Below are positions 1 to 12,917 of a stretch of DNA of 35,551 nucleotides, piece by piece. Source of the stretch: Geobacteraceae bacterium GWC2_55_20 (GTDB lineage Bacteria; Desulfobacterota; Desulfuromonadia; Geobacterales; Pseudopelobacteraceae); contig MGZK01000185.1 in the NCBI GenBank assembly GCA_001802125.1, positions 1-35,551 on the forward strand, given 5' to 3'. Position numbers and translations under genes: made by a program. Under the pieces are notes generated by a model. That model ran no database searches and was not told where the DNA came from. It saw nothing but the letters and a program-made list of their open reading frames with translations. The first letter of the stretch is position 1. Every line of letters begins with the position of its first letter.

Positions 1-3000
1 GCCATCACGACCTGCTCGCGGAAGTTTTCCACCAGCAGCTGCCGCAGCATGCCGGCCTGTACGGCCAGCGGTTTTTCGGCATGGACGGAGATGTCGCCCC
101 TGCGCCGTTCCTGCATCATTTCCCATGGATAGCGGGCCGCGGCGTCATTCAGCACCAGGACCACATCGCGCCGGTCAGGGGCGTATTCCTTGAGCTCGTT
201 CGGGATCAGCATTTCGAATAGCGTAATGGAAACACCTTCGTTGCTGGCGGTGCTCTCCGACATCTCCGCGATGAAGCGGTCGGCCAGATTGCGCTGGGAC
301 TGCAACAGGTGCACCTCGGCCCGCGCCCGGTCGGTCAGCAGGTCGAAGGAGAGCCGGGCTTCCTTATCCTCCTTGATCTGGAGCCTTTGCCACCAGGGCT
401 CGTCCTCGGAGAAGCTGGCCCGGCGCATGCCACCCTCAAGCGGGAGCACCAACGGCTCGGGATCAATTGCAAAGGAGCGGGCTATTTCCGGGACGCCGCG
501 CAAGTTTGCCAGGGTCCGGACCGCATGGATGGCCCGGTCCTCGTAGAGTTCCACGAATTCAACCTCTTCGATACGGGCACAGTCGCTGCGTCCTGATTCT
601 TCGATGTAGCGGTTGGCGTCGACCACACCGCGCAGAATGGCGGTGACCGCGTACTGTAGCGAGACGCCGCCGGCTCCGGTGCCGATCAACAGGGCGCTGA
701 TGCCGGCGTGGCCGGCCTTGCCGCTTTTTACCAGCGGACATTCGGCCCGCGACAGCGAGTAGGAACGCACTCCGCGGGAGACGGCCCGCAGCAGCCGGCC
801 GGGAGAGAGCTTGCCTACTTGTCCTAGTCCGATCACGATGGCTCCGGCCGGCTTGCCGTCACTCTTCTGCAGACGTTCCCAATCGGGATTGAGAAAAATC
901 TCGGCCGTGTCATCGTCACCGGGGTAGATCCTGAGACGGTGCCGGGCACTAAGCCGGCCGTCGAGGGTCTGATCCAGGTAGGCCTCGGCGCTGATGATCG
1001 TATCGCCTTGATAGTGCCCCACCAGGATCGGATGGCTGGCGAAGGCCAGGCTGCCGTGCCGGACGCTGACCTTGATCTTGAATTCCAGTGTCCGGCGGCG
1101 GGCCTTGCGGCCGCCACCCAGCGCGGTTCGCGCCAGGTCTCCGAAATCCGGGTAGAGCGCTTCCCGCTCGACCGGCATATTGAAGCGTTCCACCGTGCCG
1201 CGGATTTCGGGTGGGGTTGTCGGCAGCCGGTTGGTGGCGCCTTGCCGCAGCAGGTCGCTGATCGCGTCAAAGCCCTCTTCGGCGGCGGGCAGGTCGCCAT
1301 GGGCGGCATCCAGGTACCAGGTCCTGATGCCGGCCGGTATGCCGCTTTCCCACGGAACCCGGCCATCCCCCCGCGCCGTGGCGTGGAAGACCAGCCTTTT
1401 TTCGCTCCCTTCTTCTGCAATGGTCAGGTCGAGCGGGGTGGCCGGCGCGCTGCCGGCGATGTAGAACACCCGCTCCGGGTCAAGTGGGGAGTCGAACAGG
1501 ATTTGCTGCATGCTCCTTGCCGCAGCCAGCGCCTGGGCGGACGGGGGCTGCCAGCAGCCGCTTTCGGGATCGGCGTCCACCAGCGCCTGCCAGACATCGG
1601 CATCGAAAAGATCCAGGCTCCCGCTTGCCGGCAGCATCTCCAGCAGGCCGGGGAACTGCGCCACGATCCTGATCAACTCTTTCATGTCCCTGGTCGTGTC
1701 GAGCAGTGCGAGCCGGCGGATCAGGCCATCGCGTCCCGTCAGGATTTGGGCCACCGCGTGGCAGCCGCCGTTGGGGGTGCCGAGCATGATCAGCCGTGCG
1801 TCCGGGCGTTGCTTGATCCGCTCCCAGAGATCAGGCCGCGCGGCAATCATGGCCCGTGCCACGAGACCACCCATGGAGTGGGCCACAATGCTGACCGGCT
1901 GTCTGCTGGCCTCGGTATCGTCCAGAGCCTGGTTGATTGCCGTGGCCAGGCGCTTGGCCTCCTCGAAGACCGAGAGCCGCCAGTCGAAGGGGAAGGGTTC
2001 GACCCGGTGCGTTCCGGACAGGTGCTTGACCAGATCACCGTAGAACATCCAGAGCGGAGCTTCCGCCGACACCAGGTTCGGTGTGCCGTAGCGCAGCAGT
2101 TGGAGCTTGCCCAGGGCGAGGTCGAGTGGGTCGAGCCAGATCCGGTTCTGGTCGATGGCCAGATGGCTCCCCATGATTCCCGGCAGCACAAAGACCACCG
2201 GCCGCCCGGCCGCCGCGCCTCGTTGCTCGTAGGGAGGGGTGCCGCTATCGGCGTCACGCACTGAGAAGGCTTCGAAACCGTCCTCTTCGGCGCCGCTCCT
2301 GGTCAGGGCTCGCACCAGGCCTTCGGCGCTGTCGGCATTTCCGAAGTAACTGAAATGGTTCACATCGCCGCCGCGCCGGAAAATGAAGCCAGCCCCACCC
2401 AGTCGCTCGGCGCCGCCGAACATGGCGTCGGTATTCACCACCAGATCGTGGTCATCCTGGTAGAGCGGGTCGGTCAGCAGCGTGCCGAGGGCGCTGACGA
2501 CGCTCTCCCCCTCGATATCCCCGGAGATTACCCGCAGCTCGCCGTTCAGTGTCACATCCGGGCGGTTGAGCAGCGCCACCAGCGGGGAGGAGGGGATCAT
2601 CGCCTCGATGCCGGGCAGTATGGCCGGATCGGAGCGCTCCTTGGCCACGGCCATGATCAACTCGCTGAAGATGTTGTAGAGGACGCTCCCTGGCGTCATC
2701 TTGAAGAGACTGAAAGAACCCAGCAGATTAAAGAGGATTGACAGGTAGATGTCGAGGCGCCCCGAGGCCAGAGTCGTCCCACGGGCCGGGCAGGCGACCC
2801 GTACAAAGCGCTCGACCCGGATGCGCCTCTCTTTCAGCAGCGTGTTGAGCCGGCGCAGGTCCCCCCGCACACGATCGGGATCCCTTTCGGCAAAAAAACT
2901 GAGCGCCGCTTCGTCGAAAGGGTCACATCCGCCGCCGCTTCTCCCGGCGTGGCAGAGCAGTTCGCCAACCATGCCGCCGCGCGAGTGGGAGACCAGATGG

Positions 3001-3749
3001 ATGCGGACGTTGCCGGGGAGCTGTTCGGCCAGGGCGATGGCGTTGTGAATCGGGCTCTTGCTGAGGGATTCGTGCTCCAGGCCAAAGACCCGTCCTTCGT
3101 AGGGCGCCAGAAGCTGGTCGAGCTGGGGCTTGCGCTTGTCGCTCCAGAGTTTGCCAAAGCTGCCGGCGGTGGAAGAGGCGGTGCCATGCAGAAAGAGCAG
3201 GGCCGGACGGTCATCGGGAAGGGTGATGGTTCCCTCTTCCACCCGTTTCAGGACAAGTTCATCGGCGCCAGAGAGGCGGTAGAGGCCGGGTCCGCGCCCC
3301 TCGTCGGCCGTGCCGAGGGTGTGATCCTCCCAGGCGGATGCGATTTTCCGGGCGGCAAACTCGGCCAGATCGATATGGAAGAAGCGCAGCGTCTTGATCA
3401 CGATCTTGCCGATGATCCCCCGCGTCCCGCTCCTGCCGGGCAGGGAAGTCGGTAAATTCAGGATGCCGTCCGCCGCGCGGGTTCCGGCCAGTTGCAGCAC
3501 CTCGCTCCTGAGGCGTTCCTGGGTGGTCCAGAAACGGGTGCCATCCTCAAGTTCCAGCTCTACCACATCGTCCGATCTGCTCTCGATGACCGGCGCTTCG
3601 GCCGCACCCTCCCGCGCCGTGCTGATTTGGAAGGTCTGGACCGAGCGGATGTTGAAGACGTCCTTGAGTTGCTCGGGAATTGCCGGAGCTGTTTCATCGA
3701 CTTTCTTGCCTGGAATGCGGAGCTTGATGGGGGTGTTGTCGGCGGCCAT
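1..3749 (-). CDS. Tandem alpha/beta-hydrolase (LCAT-like) protein with C-terminal CHAT-like region, partial
   Basis: The frame stays open from ATG at 3749 to the window edge (at least 1249 codons), so the C-terminus is missing. Two hydrolase modules are visible. The first has an oxyanion-type LHGT near residue 186, a nucleophile elbow SHSRGG with Ser256, and candidate Asp435 and His465. The second resembles lecithin:cholesterol acyltransferases: LPGIMGSHL near 520, AHSMGG with Ser625, GDGRVP with Asp795 and AHGD with His817. Around residue 1209 a PWEMM motif follows a hydrophobic VVLVLN strand, as at the start of CHAT (caspase-like) domains; the catalytic His and Cys would lie beyond base 1 and cannot be checked. 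No signal peptide is seen, so it is probably cytosolic. It is the last visible gene of a five-gene minus-strand run, 101 bp after the TIR-NB-ARC gene. Inferred role: lipase and protease effector in a conflict system. The lipase modules are well supported, CHAT less so. Confidence 0.82.
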   Translation of the reverse strand, partial: MAADNTPIKLRIPGKKVDETAPAIPEQLKDVFNIRSVQTFQISTAREGAAEAPVIESRSDDVVELELEDGTRFWTTQERLRSEVLQLAGTRAADGILNLPTSLPGRSGTRGIIGKIVIKTLRFFHIDLAEFAARKIASAWEDHTLGTADEGRGPGLYRLSGADELVLKRVEEGTITLPDDRPALLFLHGTASSTAGSFGKLWSDKRKPQLDQLLAPYEGRVFGLEHESLSKSPIHNAIALAEQLPGNVRIHLVSHSRGGMVGELLCHAGRSGGGCDPFDEAALSFFAERDPDRVRGDLRRLNTLLKERRIRVERFVRVACPARGTTLASGRLDIYLSILFNLLGSFSLFKMTPGSVLYNIFSELIMAVAKERSDPAILPGIEAMIPSSPLVALLNRPDVTLNGELRVISGDIEGESVVSALGTLLTDPLYQDDHDLVVNTDAMFGGAERLGGAGFIFRRGGDVNHFSYFGNADSAEGLVRALTRSGAEEDGFEAFSVRDADSGTPPYEQRGAAAGRPVVFVLPGIMGSHLAIDQNRIWLDPLDLALGKLQLLRYGTPNLVSAEAPLWMFYGDLVKHLSGTHRVEPFPFDWRLSVFEEAKRLATAINQALDDTEASRQPVSIVAHSMGGLVARAMIAARPDLWERIKQRPDARLIMLGTPNGGCHAVAQILTGRDGLIRRLALLDTTRDMKELIRIVAQFPGLLEMLPASGSLDLFDADVWQALVDADPESGCWQPPSAQALAAARSMQQILFDSPLDPERVFYIAGSAPATPLDLTIAEEGSEKRLVFHATARGDGRVPWESGIPAGIRTWYLDAAHGDLPAAEEGFDAISDLLRQGATNRLPTTPPEIRGTVERFNMPVEREALYPDFGDLARTALGGGRKARRRTLEFKIKVSVRHGSLAFASHPILVGHYQGDTIISAEAYLDQTLDGRLSARHRLRIYPGDDDTAEIFLNPDWERLQKSDGKPAGAIVIGLGQVGKLSPGRLLRAVSRGVRSYSLSRAECPLVKSGKAGHAGISALLIGTGAGGVSLQYAVTAILRGVVDANRYIEESGRSDCARIEEVEFVELYEDRAIHAVRTLANLRGVPEIARSFAIDPEPLVLPLEGGMRRASFSEDEPWWQRLQIKEDKEARLSFDLLTDRARAEVHLLQSQRNLADRFIAEMSESTASNEGVSITLFEMLIPNELKEYAPDRRDVVLVLNDAAARYPWEMMQERRRGDISVHAEKPLAVQAGMLRQLLVENFREQVVM

Positions 3750-3850: not shown

Positions 3851-6481
3851 TCATTCTTTGCTTTCGAGAGACTGAATCCGCTTCCTGGTGTTGATCGTAC
3901 CCGGATGGTTCGCGCCGAGCACACGCTCCAGGTCGGGCAAGAGCTCACGAAAGAGTCGCAGAGCTTCGAGCGTGTCGCCGCTTAGTTCAGTGCAGAAGGC
4001 AATACACTTACGGGTTATGAGCGTATCAGGATGGTCCACGCCCAGCACCCGCTTCTGAGCGGGTAAAAGCTCTTGAAAGAGCCGGGTTGCTTCGCGCGGA
4101 TCGCCGCATTCTCTGGTCCAGTCGGCAATATTGCTGCGGGTTTTGAGAGTGTAGGGGTGTTCAGCACCGAATACCCTCACACGATCGGGCAAAAGTTTTT
4201 TAAAGAGCTTCAACGCTTTGTGCGGGTTGCCGCTCTTACCGGTCCATAGGGCAATGTTGCTGCGGGTCTTGAGAATGTCGGGATGGTCCGCGCCAAGAAT
4301 CCGCGTCCGATCGGGCAAGAGTTTTTGTAAGAGCTTCAGCGCCTCGCTTACGTTGCCTGTTTCACCGGTCCAGTGGGCGATGTTGCTGCGAGTTATGAGA
4401 ATGTCGGGATGGTCCGCGCGAAGAATCCGCGTCTGGTCATGCAAAAGCTCTTGAAAGAGCTTCAGAGCCTCGTTTACTTTGAATGTCTCCCCGGTCCAGG
4501 TGGCGATGTCGTTGCGGGTTTTTAACGTGTAAGTGTGCTCCGCGCCGAACACACTTTCCTGCTCTGGCAACAGTTCCCGGGAGAGCCGCAGAGCCTCGCG
4601 ATAGTCGCCTGACTTTCCGGTGTATGAGGCGATGTTGTAGCGGGTGGCGAGGGTGTCCGGATGGTTTGGACCGAGCAGCAACTCCTGATTGGGCTGAAGT
4701 TTATGAAAAAGCCGCAGAGCCTCGCGGTAGTTGCCGCGCTCACCTTCGAAACTGGCTATCCAGGCTGCAAGCACGGCCTCTTCGACAGAGTGGGGTTCCG
4801 GTGTCAAATGCCGTGCATGGGGGAGTTCGAATTCCAACCCGGCGTGTTTTCGGATGTCGGTCACATCCTCCAACAGGCTGACAAGCGCTGTGACCGCAGC
4901 CGCTCGCACAGTTCTGCGCAGCGCAATTGCATCATTTTCAGCCGGATCGCCGTGAATCATGGTGTAGCGTACCAGAGCGTGAACCGAGAGCGTGTCGCCG
5001 GTCGCCTCCCCCAGCGAGACGGTGGCCAGTGAGTGGGTTTCAAGCTGGTTGATCGCCTTGGCAAAACAGGCCTCTGAGCCGGCTTCGTCCAACAGCAAGG
5101 CCCGGCCCAGGGCCGCCTTGGCCAGCCTGAACGAAATGGGGGTGCCGCCGTGCAGCTCTCCGGCAAGGCGCAGGAGATTCAATCCTTCCTCTCCGAGCAG
5201 TCGCACGCTCTGTACAAGGGTGACTACGATGCTCTTCTCATGGCCTCCGGGAAGCTGTCCTGCCAGCCCGGCGATCAGCGCACCCAGCGGATCGGTTTGC
5301 GCCTGTGCCAGATCGGCCCGCATCGCCGCGAAACTCCTGGATTTGAGCAGAAAGTGTCCGGTCACATCCAGCGCCAGGGCGTGGCGTCCGAGATCCTCTG
5401 CGAGGTCTCGGGCATCGTGCCGTTCCTGATCGGACCGGGGCTTGCGTTCCTGGGTAAGCAGTTCATAGGCCGGTTCCTGCTCCAGCACATCGATCTCAAC
5501 CGTAACACCGATCCCATCGTACTCCCTGCAGCGGGTGGTGATCAGGGTGCGGCCGTTGGCGCCGGGTGCATACCATCCAGGCAGGCCCTGCTCCTGGTCC
5601 AGGCCAGGTGGTAAATCGTCAACAATCCAGAGGTACGGTTCTCCGCCGGCAAGTTTCTGCCCGAGTTGATGGTAGATTACCCGGAAATCAAGACCGGTGA
5701 TGTCAATGTCCAGATTGATCGCCAGCCCCTCGATCTGTTGTTTCCGTACTCCTTCGCGCGCTTCGGGATCCATCGGTTTATGGGGATCGAAGCCGTAGGC
5801 GCGCAACCAGTAGATACCGCCGGGGTAAGCCGCGCTGAAACGCCAGGCATACTCGATCGCCAGCAGACTCTTGCCCACGCCGCCCAATCCGGTGAGCTGC
5901 GCCACGACAGCGGGGTTCTCGCAGTCAAAAATCCCGACCGGGTTAAGGGCGGTGTGGATGCGCCACAACTCGCGCAGTCGGCCAACGAACCGTGCCGAGC
6001 CCTGTTGTGCGGAAGGGCGCCATATCGGCAGCTTGAACTGGCGCAGTGCGGTAAAATCATCGGCCAGATCGGCCAGTCTCTCGCCGAGCAGCCGGATGCA
6101 GGTGTTTTGGGTTGTCTCGTCCTTTGGCGCGCTTAGATAGTTCTGGCGCTCCACGTCGCCCAGGGCGATATGGGCCACGTTCTCCAGGGGGTTGAGGATC
6201 AGGATACGCGACAGAACGTCGCGGGTCAGCCGCTGTGTGCAGATCCAGGCGGCGATCAACTCCTTCTGGCAGTAGCTTGATTGGGCGTATTCAGGGGAAT
6301 ACCAGGCAAGCAGCGCGTGGGAGCGGGCCAGACCATCACGGATGCGGGCCGGGAAATCGTTGAGCGGATCGATCTCCTCGCGGTCGATCCAGATATCGAC
6401 CCCCGCCTTGGTCAGGGCTTCGGCAAACGGATAAACCTGCTCTTTGTTCTTGCGTGAGTAGCTGATGAACAGCGTGGCCAT
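3851..6481 (-). CDS. TIR - NB-ARC (STAND) - TPR protein, NLR-like
   Basis: This 876-residue protein has three parts. Residues 1-140 are a TIR domain that starts with LFISYSR and carries the conserved Glu74 in CQKEL, the NADase catalytic position in bacterial TIRs. Residues 165-480 are an NB-ARC/STAND ATPase with P-loop GLGGVGKS at 198-205, Walker B LWIVDD at 284-289 and an ITTR sensor-like motif near 314. Residues 589-876 are seven 42-residue TPR-like units of the kinesin-light-chain type (GADHPDTLxTRxNIA). The architecture parallels plant and animal NLRs: the repeats would sense a ligand, the ATPase would oligomerise and the TIR would consume or cyclise NAD. Start chosen at 6481 rather than 6523 because MATLF begins the TIR fold and has GAGAGG upstream. 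It lies 58 bp downstream of the TIR-PASTA gene on the same strand. The last repeat is cut short at the stop codon. The defence role is inferred from family precedent. Confidence 0.93.
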   Translation of the reverse strand: MATLFISYSRKNKEQVYPFAEALTKAGVDIWIDREEIDPLNDFPARIRDGLARSHALLAWYSPEYAQSSYCQKELIAAWICTQRLTRDVLSRILILNPLENVAHIALGDVERQNYLSAPKDETTQNTCIRLLGERLADLADDFTALRQFKLPIWRPSAQQGSARFVGRLRELWRIHTALNPVGIFDCENPAVVAQLTGLGGVGKSLLAIEYAWRFSAAYPGGIYWLRAYGFDPHKPMDPEAREGVRKQQIEGLAINLDIDITGLDFRVIYHQLGQKLAGGEPYLWIVDDLPPGLDQEQGLPGWYAPGANGRTLITTRCREYDGIGVTVEIDVLEQEPAYELLTQERKPRSDQERHDARDLAEDLGRHALALDVTGHFLLKSRSFAAMRADLAQAQTDPLGALIAGLAGQLPGGHEKSIVVTLVQSVRLLGEEGLNLLRLAGELHGGTPISFRLAKAALGRALLLDEAGSEACFAKAINQLETHSLATVSLGEATGDTLSVHALVRYTMIHGDPAENDAIALRRTVRAAAVTALVSLLEDVTDIRKHAGLEFELPHARHLTPEPHSVEEAVLAAWIASFEGERGNYREALRLFHKLQPNQELLLGPNHPDTLATRYNIASYTGKSGDYREALRLSRELLPEQESVFGAEHTYTLKTRNDIATWTGETFKVNEALKLFQELLHDQTRILRADHPDILITRSNIAHWTGETGNVSEALKLLQKLLPDRTRILGADHPDILKTRSNIALWTGKSGNPHKALKLFKKLLPDRVRVFGAEHPYTLKTRSNIADWTRECGDPREATRLFQELLPAQKRVLGVDHPDTLITRKCIAFCTELSGDTLEALRLFRELLPDLERVLGANHPGTINTRKRIQSLESKE
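3854..4717 (-). repeat. Seven tandem ~126-bp units encoding 42-aa TPR-like repeats
   Basis: The 3' third of the TIR-NB-ARC gene is built from 126-bp units: six complete and one of about 36 codons. Units three and four from the 5' side, roughly 4214-4465, remain very similar in DNA, sharing long blocks such as gatggtccgcgc. This points to recent duplication or homogenisation. The most variable residues fall between the conserved GADHP and NIA blocks. Confidence 0.85.
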
Positions 6482-6539: not shown

Positions 6540-7907
6540 CTATCGGGCGCGTTCCCAGGTGATGTAACTGATTTTCATGACGCCGGGACTGGGGCCGACC
6601 GGTTCCCGGAGCTTGAAGGAGGCCAGGTTGCCGCGGCTGGTCCTGACGCAGGCGTAGTAGTTCTCCGTTATTCTCTGGATGGGGATGCGCCGTTCAGTCA
6701 TCTTTACCTGGGAGCAGTTCTCGTAGGTGGTCTTCTCCCGTGTCAGGCCGATGGTTGCTCCGTTCCTCGGCGTCAGGTAGCGCTCCGTCTCCGTCACCGC
6801 CTCGAACCAGAAATCCGCATCCCCGTTACGGACAATTTGGCCCGAATCCAGGTCGAACAGATAGGTCTGATGAACCTCCAGGTTTCCCCTGGCGAGCACT
6901 TTTTGAGCCGCGAGCGTATCACCCGCCGAGCCGTCGGCAGCCTGTGGCGCGGATACCAGCAGGTCCACCGCCGTACCGCGCCTGGCCGTGGCGCCTGCTT
7001 TGAGTTTCTGGTTGAGGACCATTCCGGGGAGAGACTTGTCAGTCGGTCGAAGAGTCTCGGTTCCCGGCCGCAGTCCAGCCTCGGTCAGTATCCTTACGGC
7101 GCGTTCCAGCGGTTGCCGCACCACGTTCGGCACGGTGACGAGTCTGGCCGGGGCTGGTTCCTGCTGTGTGTCGGTCGCTGGTGTTGAGTCTGTTGCCGGT
7201 ATCTTTGGTTCCCGGTCGGTTGGGTGGGTGTTGCTTCCGGTAGAGGGGGAGCCGGTGGTGGTTGTGACCTGTGGCGATCCCTTGAACAGCCTGACAAAGC
7301 TGTTTCGGAACGACTCGACGCCGGTCAGCAGTCCCGTCAGCGCCAGCAGCAGTGCGGTGACGGAGCTGATCAGCCAGGTAAGCCGGTTTTTTTGCACACC
7401 GGACAACAGTTTCGTGTTGGCCCCGCCCGTGGGGACCGTTTCTGCCGTTTCTAAAATCCGCCCCAGGGTCTCGACCAGTTGCGCCAGATCCGTGTCCCAG
7501 TGGGTATCGTTGATCTCGATGGCATTGCGGCGGGCCAGCAGCTTCAGGTCATCGGGAAGGTCCGTCTCTTTTGGCATGGCCGCATCCTGAACCAGCACCG
7601 GAATCACCCGGATGTTTCGCTTCAGGGCCGTGCCGACTTCAAGGCGGATGAAGTCCGCAGTGTCCTCCAGTCGCCGCCGGCCGGCCGCGTCGCTGCAGTC
7701 AAGCCACTTCCGGCCGATGATAACCAGTAGCACCGTGCAGGAACCCACGGCCCGATCGATGGCCTCCACGAAATCAACCCCCGGCTCGATGGCGGAGACA
7801 TCCATGAAGACCCGCTCCCTGCCGAAGCGTTCCCGCAAGCGGTCGTAGATCCGCCCGGCGTGCCCGGCGCTCTCTTCACGGCGGTAGCTGATGAATATCC
7901 CTTCCAT
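6540..7907 (-). CDS. TIR - transmembrane - PASTA receptor-like protein
   Basis: This 455-residue protein has an N-terminal TIR domain (about 1-150) starting IFISYRRE, with the likely catalytic Glu90 in RLEV. A single hydrophobic helix spans about 176-197 (LTWLISSVTALLLALTGLL). A Ser/Thr/Pro-rich linker follows at 210-255, then a PASTA domain at 256-320 (VPNVVRQPLERAVRILTEAGL and a VDLLVSAP end), then about 130 uncharacterised residues. There is no cleavable signal, so the TIR should stay in the cytoplasm and the PASTA face the periplasm. PASTA domains of Ser/Thr kinases and PBPs bind peptidoglycan fragments or beta-lactams, so a wall-sensing receptor is inferred. GAGGAG precedes the ATG. It sits 15 bp after the C11 protease gene and 58 bp before the TIR-NB-ARC gene, and is probably co-transcribed with both. 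Confidence 0.9.
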   Translation of the reverse strand: MEGIFISYRREESAGHAGRIYDRLRERFGRERVFMDVSAIEPGVDFVEAIDRAVGSCTVLLVIIGRKWLDCSDAAGRRRLEDTADFIRLEVGTALKRNIRVIPVLVQDAAMPKETDLPDDLKLLARRNAIEINDTHWDTDLAQLVETLGRILETAETVPTGGANTKLLSGVQKNRLTWLISSVTALLLALTGLLTGVESFRNSFVRLFKGSPQVTTTTGSPSTGSNTHPTDREPKIPATDSTPATDTQQEPAPARLVTVPNVVRQPLERAVRILTEAGLRPGTETLRPTDKSLPGMVLNQKLKAGATARRGTAVDLLVSAPQAADGSAGDTLAAQKVLARGNLEVHQTYLFDLDSGQIVRNGDADFWFEAVTETERYLTPRNGATIGLTREKTTYENCSQVKMTERRIPIQRITENYYACVRTSRGNLASFKLREPVGPSPGVMKISYITWERAR

Positions 7908-7922: not shown

Positions 7923-9212
7923 TCACCTACCCAAGCTTGCCAGATACGCTACCAGAAACTCATCCCACAAACTCTGCTTGGTGAAATCCAGGGTCTTGTA
8001 GAGTGGCGATAGCTTGCGTTTGGGGAAGTAGATTGAAATTCCCCTGGAGTTGTTGACCGCCGAACCCTTGTACCCGCTGGCGATGATGGCGGCAGCGGCG
8101 GCCTGTTTGACTTCGTCACAGGCGCTGAGTATCTTCGGGGCCGTCAGATTGGCCTCCAGCAGGGAGCACAGGTCGAGCAGGTCGCAGTAATCGTCGTAGG
8201 GGCGGCTGTACTCCTGAACCTGGGCCCGGGCGTTGATCAGGGCGGTGCGGGAAGCGCTGTTGGTCAGGATTTTCTTGAGAACCTTGGCCAGTCCGTTTAC
8301 GGCGGAGGCCAGGGGTTTGAGATCAGAGAGCTTCACGGCTGACTGGGTGACACAGTCGGCAGACTTGTAGGAAGCCAGATACTGGCTGACGATGGTCTTT
8401 GACAGTTCCTCCGGGGACATGTCCGGTTTTGCGGCCAGAGCAGCAAGAATACGGTCGTAAGGCCAGCCTTCACCCGGCTCGGTCTCTTCGGAGCCGACGC
8501 TGAACTCGGCCACATCGCGCATCTGATAGGATACCTCCAGCATGCTCATCAGGCAGGCGTCCATTCCGAGAATGTCGATTTTTCGTTTGAGCTTCCTTTT
8601 GATGCTGGCCATAACTTTTTTCAATTCGATGTTGTCCAGAAAATCCTGGGCCTGGTCATCAAAGGCGATTGCCCGCTGCTTTACGGCGCTTCCCACGGTG
8701 GAGCTGAACAGTGCCCGGCGGGTGCGGGAGAGGCCGGCCCGGGCATGGGCAAAGGCGATTGGCTTTACTTCCGCGGTTGCCACACGGGTGACGACCGGTT
8801 GGCTCTTGCGGCTGACCGGCGGCGTGGCGCCGCTGAAAACGTCGCCCTGGTACAGGTTGGCGTCATCCCAGCCGGCGCCATGGTTCCAGAGCACCAGCAG
8901 GTAATGGTTGGCCGGATAGTTCGTCACCCCCCAGGTGACAAACTCTTTCAGCACGTTCGGGTCGCCCATGTTGGTCTCCCCCAGTGTCTGCACGGCGTCC
9001 TTTACGACCGGTGTCCCTTTTCTGAGATAGTAGCGCGTGGTGGCTCCCTTGGCTCCGGCCCGGTCGAACTGCGCCAGGACAGCGATCCGGTCACTGCTGC
9101 CTACTGTTTTCATTTCGTTCAGATCAACAACCCCGGCGCTGTCCAGGTTGTTGTCACCGGCCAGATAAACCATGATGGTCCAGTTTCTTGTAGTGTTCGC
9201 TTCGGTTGGCAT
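7923..9212 (-). CDS. Clostripain-like cysteine protease, family C11
   Basis: This 429-residue protein begins with the C11 hallmark WTIMVYLAGDNNLD at 11-24. The catalytic His111 lies in LWNHGAGW and Cys220 in ILGMDACLMSM, followed by the conserved EVSYQM and GSEETEPGEGWPY blocks. C11 enzymes are caspase-fold (clan CD) proteases that cleave after basic residues and often self-process. An Arg/Lys-rich insert at about 130-180 between His and Cys is a candidate processing site. No signal peptide is visible, unlike secreted clostripain, so it probably acts in the cytosol. A near-perfect ribosome site AAGGAGG precedes the ATG. It lies 22 bp after the M15 gene and 15 bp before the TIR-PASTA gene. An effector or activating protease in the same pathway is inferred; its substrates are unknown. 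Confidence 0.93.
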   Translation of the reverse strand: MPTEANTTRNWTIMVYLAGDNNLDSAGVVDLNEMKTVGSSDRIAVLAQFDRAGAKGATTRYYLRKGTPVVKDAVQTLGETNMGDPNVLKEFVTWGVTNYPANHYLLVLWNHGAGWDDANLYQGDVFSGATPPVSRKSQPVVTRVATAEVKPIAFAHARAGLSRTRRALFSSTVGSAVKQRAIAFDDQAQDFLDNIELKKVMASIKRKLKRKIDILGMDACLMSMLEVSYQMRDVAEFSVGSEETEPGEGWPYDRILAALAAKPDMSPEELSKTIVSQYLASYKSADCVTQSAVKLSDLKPLASAVNGLAKVLKKILTNSASRTALINARAQVQEYSRPYDDYCDLLDLCSLLEANLTAPKILSACDEVKQAAAAAIIASGYKGSAVNNSRGISIYFPKRKLSPLYKTLDFTKQSLWDEFLVAYLASLGR

Positions 9213-9234: not shown

Positions 9235-10050
9235 TCACAGCTTCGTTGCCTGGACATGCATCCAGTCGTAGTTTTTGGTGCGGCCGAGGCTCGTCCAGCC
9301 TTCTTCTTCCCAGAAACGCCACCAGTCGTCGTAATCGGGTTTGGCGAAGACGGCCTTGTCGCGCCCCCATTTCAGTTGGTTGTCTTCCGGGTCATAATCC
9401 ATCGCTATTCCCCAGGAATGCATCGACCACTGGGTGCCGCCGCGCATCTTGCGCACGTTGAGGCAGCCACCCCAACGGTCGAGACGCAGTTCCTTGATCC
9501 TTTCCATGCCATAGTGGTCGAAGACCCGTTGCAGGACCCGATTGGCGCTGTCATGGACCTTGGCGTTGCATTGGTAGGAATTTATCGTGGTTTTGAGATC
9601 CCAGGCCAGGCGGTGAGGGTAGGGCAGGGCGAGCGATACCTGATTGGTACCGACCTTGCCGTAGAGCTCGTTCAGTTCTGCTTCGTTCTGTGACGGCCAG
9701 CCATTGGGATTGACATCGAGCGGAGTCTCGTCTCGCCAAGGCCTAGGCGCCTGGCCGGTTTCCAGGATATGGACCAGGGTGTCGAAGGCGTAGTCGGTCT
9801 GTGGCCCCCAGTAGCCGTCGATGTCCCCCACCTCGATTCCTTGCTCTTTGCAGAGCAGTTGAATATAGACGACAGTCTTGCGGGTATTGGGCCATCCCGG
9901 CCAGTCACCCGGCAGCCCCTGTTTTCGCTTTGTCAGCGCATCGTTGATCGCCCGGTAGGTGTTGTAACCGAGCAGGCCGTCGGCTTTGCCCGGATTTAGT
10001 CCTTCCTTGATCAGGCATTGCTGGATCACTCGGACTATGGCCGTTTTCAT
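9235..10050 (-). CDS. Peptidoglycan-binding M15 peptidase, endolysin-like
   Basis: The first ~100 of 271 residues hold two degenerate peptidoglycan-binding-type repeats (AIVRVIQQCL..GLLGYNTYRAIN and VYIQLLCKEQ..GYWGPQTDYAF). The C-terminal half is an M15 (VanY/endolysin) metallopeptidase: SMHSWGIAMDYD gives zinc ligands His211 and Asp218, EEEGW supplies the usual Glu/Trp region, and WMHVQ gives His265. GGCLNVRKMRGG just upstream is typical of phage M15 enzymes. No signal peptide is present, so it would need a holin, lysis or another export route. Known relatives cut stem peptides of peptidoglycan. It has a perfect AAGGAGG site and is the first gene of the five-gene minus-strand run. It may be domesticated phage cargo or a wall-damaging effector; the enzyme class is clear, the biological role is not. 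Confidence 0.9.
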   Translation of the reverse strand: MKTAIVRVIQQCLIKEGLNPGKADGLLGYNTYRAINDALTKRKQGLPGDWPGWPNTRKTVVYIQLLCKEQGIEVGDIDGYWGPQTDYAFDTLVHILETGQAPRPWRDETPLDVNPNGWPSQNEAELNELYGKVGTNQVSLALPYPHRLAWDLKTTINSYQCNAKVHDSANRVLQRVFDHYGMERIKELRLDRWGGCLNVRKMRGGTQWSMHSWGIAMDYDPEDNQLKWGRDKAVFAKPDYDDWWRFWEEEGWTSLGRTKNYDWMHVQATKL

Positions 10051-10415: not shown

Positions 10416-10898
10416 ATGAAAAAAAAGCTTGCGGTGCTGCTGGTGGTGGCAATGTCTTGGGGGGCGGCTTCGGTCGCTACCGCTCAGACGGAAGTACAGG
10501 CCGAGACGGCCAAGAAGGTGACGAAAAGGGTTAAAGCCAAGGCTGGTGACGCAACGATGATGCCTGCTCCCGAGGTGCAGCTGAAGCGTCTGGCAAAGGG
10601 GCTGCAACTGACGGATGAACAGCAGAAACAGATCCTTCCGCTGCTGAACGACGAGTATGCAAAACTGAAGGTGATCCAGGGGAATGAAGATCTAAGCCCC
10701 AAACAGATCCAGAAACAGGTCGAGGAGCTGCGTACCGGGACAATCGTCAAGATGCAGACATATCTGACTCCGGAGCAAAAAAAGAAACATGACCTGGTCA
10801 GCAACGAGATCAAGGCAAACAAGCAGCTTCGGATGAAGGAAAACCGCAAGGCGCGTATCGGCACCAAGGCGGACCCGCCTGCCCCAGTGTCCAACTGA
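10416..10898 (+). CDS. Periplasmic Spy/CpxP-like (LTXXQ-type) protein
   Basis: This 160-residue protein has a signal peptide (MKKKLAVLLVVAMSWGAASVATAQ) and a basic linker, then two helical blocks with the LTxxQ-type signature: LQLTDEQQKQILPLL near 64-78 and YLTPEQKKKHD near 113. Spy, CpxP and ZraP family members are helical periplasmic chaperones or stress sensors. A strong AAAGGAG site supports the ATG, and a rho-independent hairpin follows the stop. It is transcribed alone, on the opposite strand to the island genes either side, so it may be an older resident or a wall/envelope-stress component of the locus. Length and fold fit the family; the specific role is unknown. Confidence 0.8.
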   Translation: MKKKLAVLLVVAMSWGAASVATAQTEVQAETAKKVTKRVKAKAGDATMMPAPEVQLKRLAKGLQLTDEQQKQILPLLNDEYAKLKVIQGNEDLSPKQIQKQVEELRTGTIVKMQTYLTPEQKKKHDLVSNEIKANKQLRMKENRKARIGTKADPPAPVSN

Positions 10899-11079: not shown

Positions 11080-12195
11080 TTATTTAAATGCAGCGAAATG
11101 CTCCCGGCGCAACTTCTTTTCCACCACGGCTCTGCCTACCCTCTGCAGCTCCTTGATATGGTCGGTTGAGTCAAGTTTCTGCACATCTTCCGGTTCTATG
11201 TCGGTCAGCCCCAGTGCGTCCAACCCCTGTCTAGTCAGTTCGGCGTTGTAGCGCAGGTAGGTGAAGAGCTTGGGCATGGCCGGCCCTTTTCTGCCAATCA
11301 TGTCACCCACCTCACGGTCGAGCGGATCACCGGCCAGGCAGTTGCCGAAGGTCCGGCAGAGGAAGTCCTGCTCGTTGAGAGCTGCGTACATCAGGGCCGA
11401 TGGTATGGAGCTGGCGTTGTAGATAATGTTCATTTCGTCGGGTTTGAGATCCTTGTTCGCCTCCGGGCTGGTGCCGGTGCCGATGGAGACGATCAGCAGC
11501 TTGTCTTCTCCTGCCGGCCAGTTCAGGTTGTAGGGTTCGGCGGTTGCCATGAGAAAGGATTGGAAGGATGGGTTGTTGTATGTGGTGATGCCTCCATCGA
11601 CGAAGACGAACTCATGGGATCCGATCTTCACCACTTCCGGCGGGAAGTAGACCGGCGCTGCAGTGCTGGCCCGAACCAGTTGCCAGAGCGGGAGTTTCAG
11701 GTTGCAGTCGTTCCGGTCCAACCGGTTGTATTTGGCGCCAGGGTTGTTGGATACCGGCCAGGGTGAGTCGGTGGACACATTGCGCATGACCATCATAAGG
11801 AGGGTCTTCAGCTTGTTGCTGCCCAGGGTGGTCTCCGCGCCGAATACCTCACGCAATTTGCCGGCTAATTTATGATCTTCGTACTTGTTCTGGGTGTAGC
11901 GGCTGAAAATGCTGGCTTTGTCGAACATATCTTCGCCACTGCTCAGATAAAACTGACGGATCTCGTCGCTTGACATCCCCAGTGCAAGGCATGTGGCAAT
12001 AATGGCGCCGGTGCTGGTGCCGGCGAAAAAATCGAACCAGTCCGCCAGAACCAGCTTGTCGTTCTCGTGTTTATCCCGCAGAATTTTCTCGATGCCGGCC
12101 AGTACTTCCACGCTTATCATCCCGCGGATGCCGCCACCATCGAGGGCCAGAATTTTTTTTGGGCCTGGTCTGGCGATGCGTTCGTTGAGTGTCAT
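11080..12195 (-). CDS. Patatin-like phospholipase
   Basis: This 371-residue protein has all the patatin hallmarks: DGGGIRG oxyanion loop near residues 20-26, the nucleophile elbow GTSTG near 56-60 and the catalytic Asp in VFVDGG. These enzymes form a Ser-Asp dyad and hydrolyse membrane phospholipids; CBASS effectors such as CapV are relatives that kill infected cells. The start at 12195 was preferred to the longer frame because AAGGAGGG lies just upstream and the homology starts there. Its ATG overlaps the stop of the SLOG-like gene (ATGA), so the two are translationally coupled. No signal peptide or ubiquitin-like region is seen. The stop is followed by about 180 bp without a gene. Being the effector controlled by its SLOG partner is inference. 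Confidence 0.93.
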   Translation of the reverse strand: MTLNERIARPGPKKILALDGGGIRGMISVEVLAGIEKILRDKHENDKLVLADWFDFFAGTSTGAIIATCLALGMSSDEIRQFYLSSGEDMFDKASIFSRYTQNKYEDHKLAGKLREVFGAETTLGSNKLKTLLMMVMRNVSTDSPWPVSNNPGAKYNRLDRNDCNLKLPLWQLVRASTAAPVYFPPEVVKIGSHEFVFVDGGITTYNNPSFQSFLMATAEPYNLNWPAGEDKLLIVSIGTGTSPEANKDLKPDEMNIIYNASSIPSALMYAALNEQDFLCRTFGNCLAGDPLDREVGDMIGRKGPAMPKLFTYLRYNAELTRQGLDALGLTDIEPEDVQKLDSTDHIKELQRVGRAVVEKKLRREHFAAFK

Positions 12196-12869
12196 GGTGT
12201 CCCTCCTTGAAAAATTATGTTCGTGTCGAGTACGTGGACTTGGCCGGTCCGCTTGTTGACCTCGTCGTACATGTGTTCGGTGCCGCCGGGACCGTCGCCA
12301 CCCTGGCGGTTCCAGAGGCAGATGAAGTGAACTTTGTCTTCTCCCCAGGCAAGGGCGCTGTCCAGCAGCCATAGGTTAGTGATTGTATAGAGATTTGTGC
12401 CGGAAGGCGCTAACCACGGTTCGTCGGGCATTATTGAGAGAGTGGTGAGGTGGTTGTCCTTGACGGCGTGGAAACGGGCGCTCCACCCCTCACCGGCAAA
12501 GGATACCGACTTCTCCAGAAAGGTGGGTATGGCAAAGGGCAATCTGACCTCCAGACGCACCCCCCGCTTCAGGCAGGCTTCGGCAAACAGGATATCTCCG
12601 CCGCACGCGCCGCTGCAGAGAGCCATGTCTTCGGGCCCGGCGCCAAGGGTGTCGAGGGTTGCTCCGATGGCGCGTGCCGCGACAGCTTCCCGTGCTGCCG
12701 GGAAGCGGGGTTCGGGGCGGTCCGGTGAGTCGATCATATGTCCGCTGAAGAGGAATACCTGGCGGGGTTGCCACAGAGTTTTTATTCCATTGTGACCGGC
12801 GCAGTCTGACTCGACTGTATTATCTGCTTTGGAGCCATTGGGTTTGGCGATTGAGGACGAGGCTTTCAT
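12192..12869 (-). CDS. SLOG-like Rossmannoid nucleotide-binding protein
   Basis: This 225-residue protein shows the pattern of a SLOG/LOG-type nucleotide-binding fold: a beta strand leading to FSGHMIDSPDRPEPRFP (41-57), a glycine-rich SGACGGDILFAEACLKRG (86-103), a VRLPF strand, and a C-terminal TNLWLLDSAL..FICLWN..GGTEHM block (about 165-205). SLOG domains sense or process nucleotide-derived ligands; in Thoeris the SLOG of ThsA binds a TIR-made cyclic ADP-ribose. The start at 12869 (AAGGA upstream) is preferred to the in-frame codon at 12914, whose extra 15 residues look non-native. It is the first gene of a two-gene unit with the patatin gene. The fold assignment is from motif pattern, and the ligand is unknown. 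Confidence 0.75.
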   Translation of the reverse strand: MKASSSIAKPNGSKADNTVESDCAGHNGIKTLWQPRQVFLFSGHMIDSPDRPEPRFPAAREAVAARAIGATLDTLGAGPEDMALCSGACGGDILFAEACLKRGVRLEVRLPFAIPTFLEKSVSFAGEGWSARFHAVKDNHLTTLSIMPDEPWLAPSGTNLYTITNLWLLDSALAWGEDKVHFICLWNRQGGDGPGGTEHMYDEVNKRTGQVHVLDTNIIFQGGTP

Positions 12870-12917
12870 GCTGGTTCCTTGTTTTCGGTTGTTCTGCAAA
12901 CGAAGATGTCGCATATC

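Follow-up and report, generated by a model that had tools for sequence, protein, structure and literature searches.

How might a bacterial TIR domain be coupled to the cell wall, and in what setting would such a protein act? These questions are raised by a gene of Geobacteraceae bacterium GWC2_55_20, found in a stretch of 35,551 nucleotides (contig MGZK01000185.1) that we refer to as the window. Its product combines an N-terminal TIR domain, one predicted membrane helix and a PASTA domain, and it is encoded within an operon of peptidase, STAND-type and other genes. Our preferred reading, in which we place roughly even confidence, is that it is an inner-membrane TIR protein with a periplasmic PASTA domain and a disulphide-bonded C-terminal domain, and that, as one part of a conflict operon, its TIR is activated by an event at the envelope. 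Below, G numbers denote genomes and L numbers denote loci.

A TIR domain, a helix, PASTA and a conserved C-terminal domain in one protein

A preliminary description of this DNA had proposed an N-terminal TIR, one helix and a PASTA domain, and that layout is borne out by Pfam matches and hydropathy (Table 1). The reading frame starts with ATG, with GAGGAG seven bases upstream. The TIR_2 match (E 8.4e-14; 52.5 bits against a cut-off of 28) and the PASTA match (E 9.3e-12; 45.2 bits against 23.2) both exceed their curated thresholds, and Pro, Ser, Thr and Ala make up 60% of residues 213–252 in the linker that follows the helix. In PADLOC, residues 4–63 resemble ThsB (E 2.4e-9), with the TIR domains of other systems matching too, and residues 256–345, the PASTA region, resemble PD-T4-6 (E 4.1e-7). 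A whole-protein AlphaFold model built from a seven-row alignment was poor (pLDDT 49, pTM 0.35) and was used solely for its predicted helix, at residues 175–194, with no claims about fold.

Table 1. Positions of the genes and protein features discussed here, numbered along the window
Feature	Positions	Strand	Details	Basis
TIR – membrane helix – PASTA – C-terminal domain protein	6540..7907	minus	455 aa	
TIR_2 domain	7473..7898	minus	residues 4–145, including E90 at 7638–7640	Pfam
Predicted single transmembrane helix	7317..7373	minus	residues 179–197	hydropathy, helix in low-confidence model
PASTA domain	6951..7139	minus	residues 257–319, C-terminal to Pro/Ser/Thr/Ala-rich linker	Pfam
C-terminal domain	6543..6914	minus	residues 332–455 (~124 residues), conserved Cys398 and Cys420	
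M15 peptidase	9235..10050	minus	first operon gene, 271 aa	
Clostripain-family (C11) peptidase	7923..9212	minus	His111 and Cys220 kept	Pfam E 1.9e-56
TIR – STAND-type ATPase – TPR protein	3851..6481	minus	876 aa	weak AAA_16 and NB-ARC matches
Giant protein	1..3749	minus	open 1249 codons, cut by left end of window	DUF7379 and LCAT/lipase-type matches
Patatin-like phospholipase	11080..12195	minus	likely start overlaps SLOG gene by 4 bases	Pfam E 9.7e-25
SLOG-fold protein	12192..12914	minus	start 12914 or 12869	predicted model, fold search

By sequence, the best solved relative of the TIR is that of SARM1 (phmmer, E about 1e-3). E90 is aligned there with the glutamate of the SARM1 DWVHKE stretch, which we take to be catalytic, and is invariant in all 29 TIR proteins of alignment A5. 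The protein thus has the TIR fold and catalytic-type glutamate of TIR NADases, and its N-terminal domain is predicted to cleave NAD+.

The preliminary description had passed over the end of the 455-residue protein, the C-terminal domain. Both of its cysteines, Cys398 and Cys420, are invariant in the six aligned TIR-PASTA copies. Searched against 138 genomes from the order, a profile of the domain matched nine; seven of these are TIR-PASTA proteins, and the other two are larger proteins of the same order with no TIR match, distant relatives in which equivalents of both cysteines are missing. HmuY was considered as a name for the domain and rejected as too weak, since the two distant relatives stayed below threshold (19.3 and 17.5 bits against 27).

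The PASTA domain probably faces the periplasm

The helix has a mean Kyte–Doolittle value of 2.03 over 19 residues and a summed Hessa value of −0.13, and is the sole hydrophobic helix outside the TIR. Hydropathy alone is indecisive because a stretch inside the TIR (residues 46–64) also scores high, at 1.76 in the window protein (Hessa +6.5) and at 2.19 in the orthologue L019 (Hessa +3.4), where it exceeds the protein's own helix (2.03). For comparison, the Kyte–Doolittle peaks of five soluble neighbours lie between 0.63 and 1.56, the start of the 10416–10898 product reaches 1.96 and cytochrome b reaches 2.32.

A helix that does not span the membrane, leaving PASTA in the cytoplasm, would fit this moderate hydrophobicity with a Hessa sum near zero, the TIR-internal stretch of similar hydropathy and the balanced flanks of the window protein (three Lys and Arg on either side). 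We consider it very improbable. The helix and its flanks are conserved in the alignment from G000 to G039, and the corresponding helices of L006 and L081 are more hydrophobic (2.49 and 2.55). In addition, the cysteine pair of the C-terminal domain, kept in the TIR-PASTA copies and missing in the two distant relatives, suggests a Cys398–Cys420 disulphide and so an oxidising compartment.

The orientation follows from the start of the protein. As the TIR begins at residue 4, there is no space for a signal peptide ahead of it, and therefore an N-in, C-out arrangement is expected. The flanks of L019 lean the opposite way (two against three Lys and Arg), but a positive-inside bias, with more Lys and Arg before the helix, is present in 15 of 19 TIR-helix proteins, with two opposite and two equal (Wilcoxon p 0.0018, for rows that are related and not independent; L023, truncated where its contig stops, was excluded). 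PASTA follows a single helix, as it does in PASTA receptors, whose extracytoplasmic PASTA binds muropeptides or beta-lactams. In two relatives (L108 and L109) its slot is occupied by CHASE2, an extracytoplasmic sensor domain, here between two predicted helices. Together, the signal-less N-terminal TIR, the membrane-type helix, the cysteine pair and the positive-inside bias make it likely that PASTA faces the periplasm, as had been proposed, and we predict with high confidence a cytosolic TIR, one pass of the inner membrane, and a periplasmic PASTA and C-terminal domain.

The operon and its wall peptidase

The operon on the minus strand runs from the M15 peptidase through the C11 peptidase, the TIR-PASTA protein and the TIR-STAND-TPR protein to the giant protein. 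Successive genes are separated by 22, 15, 58 and 101 bases, and their ribosome sites are rich in purines. The giant protein is 82% identical to a 2180-residue relative that continues into CHAT, TPR-S and TIR. A plus-strand gene (10416–10898) separates the operon from the SLOG-fold and patatin genes (12914–11080, minus strand). The M15 protein keeps HxxxxxxD (211–218) and H265, and an N-terminal peptidoglycan-binding match falls just under the Pfam cut-off (22.0 against 23). The M15 and C11 proteins show no evident signal peptide. The M15 peptidase is endolysin-like and could reach the wall only after lysis or through a pore.

A wall hydrolase had been noted as the first gene of the operon, and in the window it is; as a constant partner of TIR-PASTA it fails, and a role for M15 as the stimulus finds no support here. 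M15 was not found in the stretches around the TIR-PASTA copies of G039, G058, G527 and G911, where upstream sequence is short for G058 (about 1.4 kb) and the contigs of G527 and G911 span 12 kb and 7.5 kb. Across the order, M15 was detected in 9 of 138 genomes. In G031 it stands beside C11 with no TIR-PASTA match, and around M15 in G093, G094 and G122 there was no C11 or TIR-STAND match in the stretches examined and no TIR-PASTA match in the genomes (G097 was left out of this comparison). M15 is thus a frequent but non-obligatory partner.

TIR-PASTA proteins are patchily distributed and often lie among effector-type genes

The protein has matches at E ≤ 1e-10 in 10 of the 141 genomes searched from its order, and in seven of these (G000, G001, G011, G024, G030, G039 and G058) the match includes the PASTA region. 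Six relatives align over TIR, helix and PASTA at 45–96% identity. A sample of the phylum gave 4 matches in 395 genomes at 1e-15, of which two involve only the TIR. Proteins with a TIR, a helix and four PASTA domains were found farther away, in G527, a Sulfurimicrobium MAG of the Betaproteobacteria, and in G911 of its order, in which at least 2 of 399 genomes have PASTA-bearing matches. TIR-helix-PASTA proteins thus occur in at least nine genomes of two lineages. Among eight proteins, PASTA is present once in the window and L019, twice in L020, L021, L022 and L023, and four times in L006 and L081; L019 and L023 were counted by alignment only, L023 has no start, and the G058 orthologue, which contains an N run, was left out of both alignment and count. 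Phage or plasmid cargo was rejected as an origin: 50,697 phage records held no match to the TIR-helix-PASTA protein, none of 66 candidate stretches from viral contigs was confirmed, and four plasmid matches covered the TIR part only.

The neighbours of these copies recur in varying combinations. The G011 locus has SLOG, M15, C11, a giant gene, another TIR, TIR-PASTA and TIR-STAND. That of G001 has SLOG, patatin, M15, C11, SIR2, nSTAND1, CAP12-TIR, TIR-PASTA and a giant gene, and that of G030 has M15, C11, alpha-amylase, SIR2, nSTAND1, SLOG, patatin, TIR-PASTA and a giant gene. In G024, TIR-PASTA, TIR-STAND and a giant gene are present and the contig ends at the TIR gene. The loci with four PASTA domains hold SLOG, TIR-4xPASTA and a caspase (G527), and a TPR-S-SLOG protein, a TIR gene and TIR-4xPASTA (G911). 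The G030 alpha-amylase (L021:15966-17849; Pfam 1.6e-39) lies between C11 and SIR2 in this effector locus. In PADLOC, locus members resemble ThsB, ThsA, phospholipase effectors and TIR effectors of the CBASS/Pycsar type. The SIR2 gene of the relatives matches SIR2-type models only. Because neighbours match effector families (C11, TIR-STAND, CHAT/TPR-S, SIR2, nSTAND1, CAP12-TIR, patatin and SLOG), a defence setting is supported, and we consider it likely that the locus is a multi-effector conflict operon, probably directed against phage.

Two copies differ in their surroundings, which counts against the defence reading. The stretches examined around TIR-PASTA in G039 and G058 contained no match to the queried defence neighbours, and both copies adjoin an RsgA-type GTPase. 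Farther along from the G039 copy is an FRG-domain gene (L022:13167-14087; Pfam 1.2e-15), with a look-alike near the G058 copy (the FRG scan covered G039 only). The GTPase neighbour would suit an ordinary protein of envelope stress or wall homeostasis outside immunity, by analogy with PASTA kinases, and PASTA is best known from wall-regulating kinases and PBPs. Such a role is improbable given the patchy distribution described above and the neighbours, which match known effector families in five of nine loci and do so more loosely in some others.

PASTA is one rare tail in a wider class of TIR-helix proteins

Sampling the Sulfurimicrobium order gave matches at 1e-25 in at least 24 of 399 genomes, with up to three candidates scored per genome; several of these matches were left out of the protein survey. 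We surveyed 33 loci (L077–L109), two of which (L078 and L079) are from a Hydrogenophaga genome outside the 399-genome sample, and dropped L080, L088, L092 and L104, for which ORF extraction gave no TIR, and L093, with an ORF on the wrong strand. Under a strict rule, the remaining 28 TIR proteins divide into 13 with exactly one helix after the TIR, three with two and 12 with none. Therefore, members of this TIR family do not require a position at the membrane. When the window protein was included (29 proteins), Pfam named the tails as PASTA in three, CHASE2 in two, and FGE-sulfatase, Pterin_4a and Ig-like in one each; other tails had no named Pfam domain at 0.001. The two TIR-helix-CHASE2-helix proteins are from the Sulfurimicrobium order (L108:1501-3207 and L109:43-1725), and by inspection L109 adjoins a caspase-like gene. 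The combination of a TIR, a helix and an exchangeable tail therefore recurs, including in Betaproteobacteria, and PASTA is one rare tail.

A SLOG-fold gene and a patatin gene near the operon

Upstream of the operon, the product of gene 12192–12914 had no Pfam match and no significant sequence match in the PDB (best E 0.14, an esterase), and its assignment therefore rests on fold search. A model predicted with eight relatives (pLDDT 85, pTM 0.86) found YpsA (E 2.2e-6) and DprA (2.3e-4) as best in Foldseek. In VIA-align, YpsA again led (Z 15.6, rmsd 3.3 over 162 residues), followed by DprA (11.8) and LOG proteins (about 9). TRPM2 was rejected as a relative because its Z of 6.3 was too low. ThsA did not appear among the best 50 rows of the fold comparison, which excludes nothing. 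On the basis of this model, the product is predicted to belong to the SLOG superfamily, with a YpsA/DprA/LOG-type fold. It has no SIR2 match and no helix (Kyte–Doolittle maximum 1.38). The adjoining patatin gene also matches a PADLOC phospholipase effector (E 2.2e-47).

A TIR together with SLOG, and a phospholipase nearby, suggests a Thoeris-like relay from a membrane TIR. As a special form of our preferred reading, the TIR would make an ADP-ribose-type messenger, SLOG would read it, and patatin, SIR2 or a protease would act as executor. Several observations are consistent with this. In six of nine TIR-helix-PASTA loci, a SLOG-fold gene of the same strand is no more than 15 kb away. Of the other three, G024 breaks off where its contig stops, and for G039 and G058 SLOG was absent both from the stretches examined and from the SLOG-search matches. 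Patatin follows SLOG in six of the ten SLOG loci examined (window, G001, G030, G103, G092 and G120). In G092, G120 and G911, SLOG ends a protein that also has a TPR-S part; the N-terminal part of this protein matches a TIR effector model in G120 (PADLOC) and looks similar in G092 and G911. In Thoeris, cADPR isomers are described as activating SIR2-SLOG effectors (PMC11204291).

Other observations weigh against such a relay. In three of the six loci, a distance of 4 to 10 kb separates SLOG from TIR-PASTA, and YpsA rather than ThsA is the nearest solved fold. Just three of the six TIR-PASTA loci with SLOG contain patatin as well; it was not found in the examined stretches of G011 (32 kb), G527 and G911, nor in that of G031. 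For this last reason we rate the relay lower, as a rather unlikely form of the preferred reading. The same reason lowers a fuller version, to which we give still less weight: that the periplasmic PASTA and C-terminal domain detect wall damage from phage entry or endolysin, that an ADP-ribose-type TIR messenger passes to the stand-alone SLOG and on to patatin or another effector, and that the protein is one of a class with exchangeable extracytoplasmic sensors. At genome level, SLOG and TIR-PASTA co-occur (4 of 7 against 9 of 138; hypergeometric p 2.8e-4), a statistic that we set aside because all four genomes belong to one genus.

G031 holds a SLOG remnant. There (L058:11581-12402), the first ~117 conserved residues of the SLOG-like protein are joined to the C-terminal ~145 residues of the giant CHAT/TPR-S protein. 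The join stands beside M15, C11 and an amylase that is 92% identical to the G030 alpha-amylase, and it resembles the outcome of a deletion within the locus.

Receptor or anchor

Under our preferred reading, PASTA and the C-terminal domain would hold the protein on peptidoglycan, or sample it. Wall cutting, membrane insertion or another event at the envelope would then cluster the TIR-PASTA protein, and clustering would switch the TIR to NAD+ cleavage. This could kill the cell directly, or yield an ADP-ribose-type signal for other proteins of the locus. Sensing by the periplasmic part is a separate matter, for which we put the chance slightly below even: PASTA may be a mere anchor, and the receptor reading is plausible.

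If PASTA served only as a wall anchor, the protein would be a membrane-placed effector, and cytosolic partners (STAND, TPR-S or others) would sense infection, then recruit and oligomerise the TIR. Potential partners of this kind are close at hand: TIR-STAND-TPR is directly downstream in the window, G011 and G024, and the stretches examined in G001 and G030, which lack it, contain nSTAND1, another STAND gene. Kaur et al. (2020, PMC7159879) likewise place effectors near membrane and wall through TM-PASTA or TM-PEGA parts. Conversely, tails are exchanged among the TIR-helix proteins, a sensor domain (CHASE2) included, and neither TIR-STAND nor nSTAND1 was found in the G527 stretch. We regard the purely anchoring role as unlikely, though it is the foremost of the alternatives.

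Comparison with known systems

We class the protein as a TIR receptor or effector whose tail is of the TM-PASTA type and whose locus is a probable multi-effector conflict locus. A full-text literature search, which covered few subscription papers, brought up no characterised TIR-PASTA protein among the papers listed, in line with the preliminary description, and PMC8195603 does not mention 'PASTA' in its main text. TM-PASTA conflict effectors themselves were already predicted in 2020 (PMC7159879). In that account of the iSTAND ternary systems by Kaur et al., the peptidoglycan-associating domains PEGA, OmpA, PASTA and Sel1 typically follow a TM segment, and the authors deduce that they act close to the membrane and wall. 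As here, PASTA follows a helix in a conflict locus, but those parts belong to MoxR-vWA ternary systems, whereas here the helix and PASTA are fused to a TIR. Among the neighbours scanned with Pfam (a subset of the neighbouring ORFs), there was no match to MoxR or vWA.

PASTA Ser/Thr kinases of the PknB/PrkC type have a cytosolic enzyme, one helix and extracytoplasmic PASTA repeats. This enzyme-helix-PASTA layout is shared by the window protein, in which the enzyme is a TIR, the host is of the Gram-negative kind and the locus is defence-like. The E. coli anti-phage protein PD-T4-6, whose profile is matched by the PASTA region, has a Ser/Thr kinase as output domain where the present protein has a TIR; it is presumably the Ser/Thr kinase system of an anti-phage survey. 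Such a kinase is listed among the anti-phage systems of PMC9519451. As predicted for the window protein, TirC of amoebae is described as a TIR NADase with a membrane helix, but it is eukaryotic, its helix is N-terminal and it has no PASTA (PMC13142454).

Thoeris shares with these loci SLOG genes and, in G001 and G030, SIR2 genes, and the TIR resembles ThsB over residues 4–63. Thoeris differs in that the TIR here is predicted to be membrane-bound with a PASTA tail, SLOG is separate, YpsA-like and often beside patatin, and SIR2 is unfused; at the window locus, neither SIR2 nor a TM segment is fused to SLOG as in ThsA.

The comparison with Toll-like receptors made in the preliminary description stands in one respect: a ligand-type domain and a TIR flank one (here predicted) membrane helix, on opposite sides. 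The LRR-helix-TIR order does not hold, since the order is reversed with the TIR N-terminal, PASTA takes the place of leucine-rich repeats (no LRR match in Pfam) and the TIR carries an NADase-type glutamate. The likeness is one of working principle, and there is no evidence for common descent of the layout. If our reading is correct, the coupling of a TIR enzyme to a wall-binding domain in the periplasm would make this protein a bacterial outside-in immune receptor. Toll-like logic would then have been reached through a different layout, in contrast to Thoeris, which is reported to sense phage capsids inside the cell (PMC12578639).
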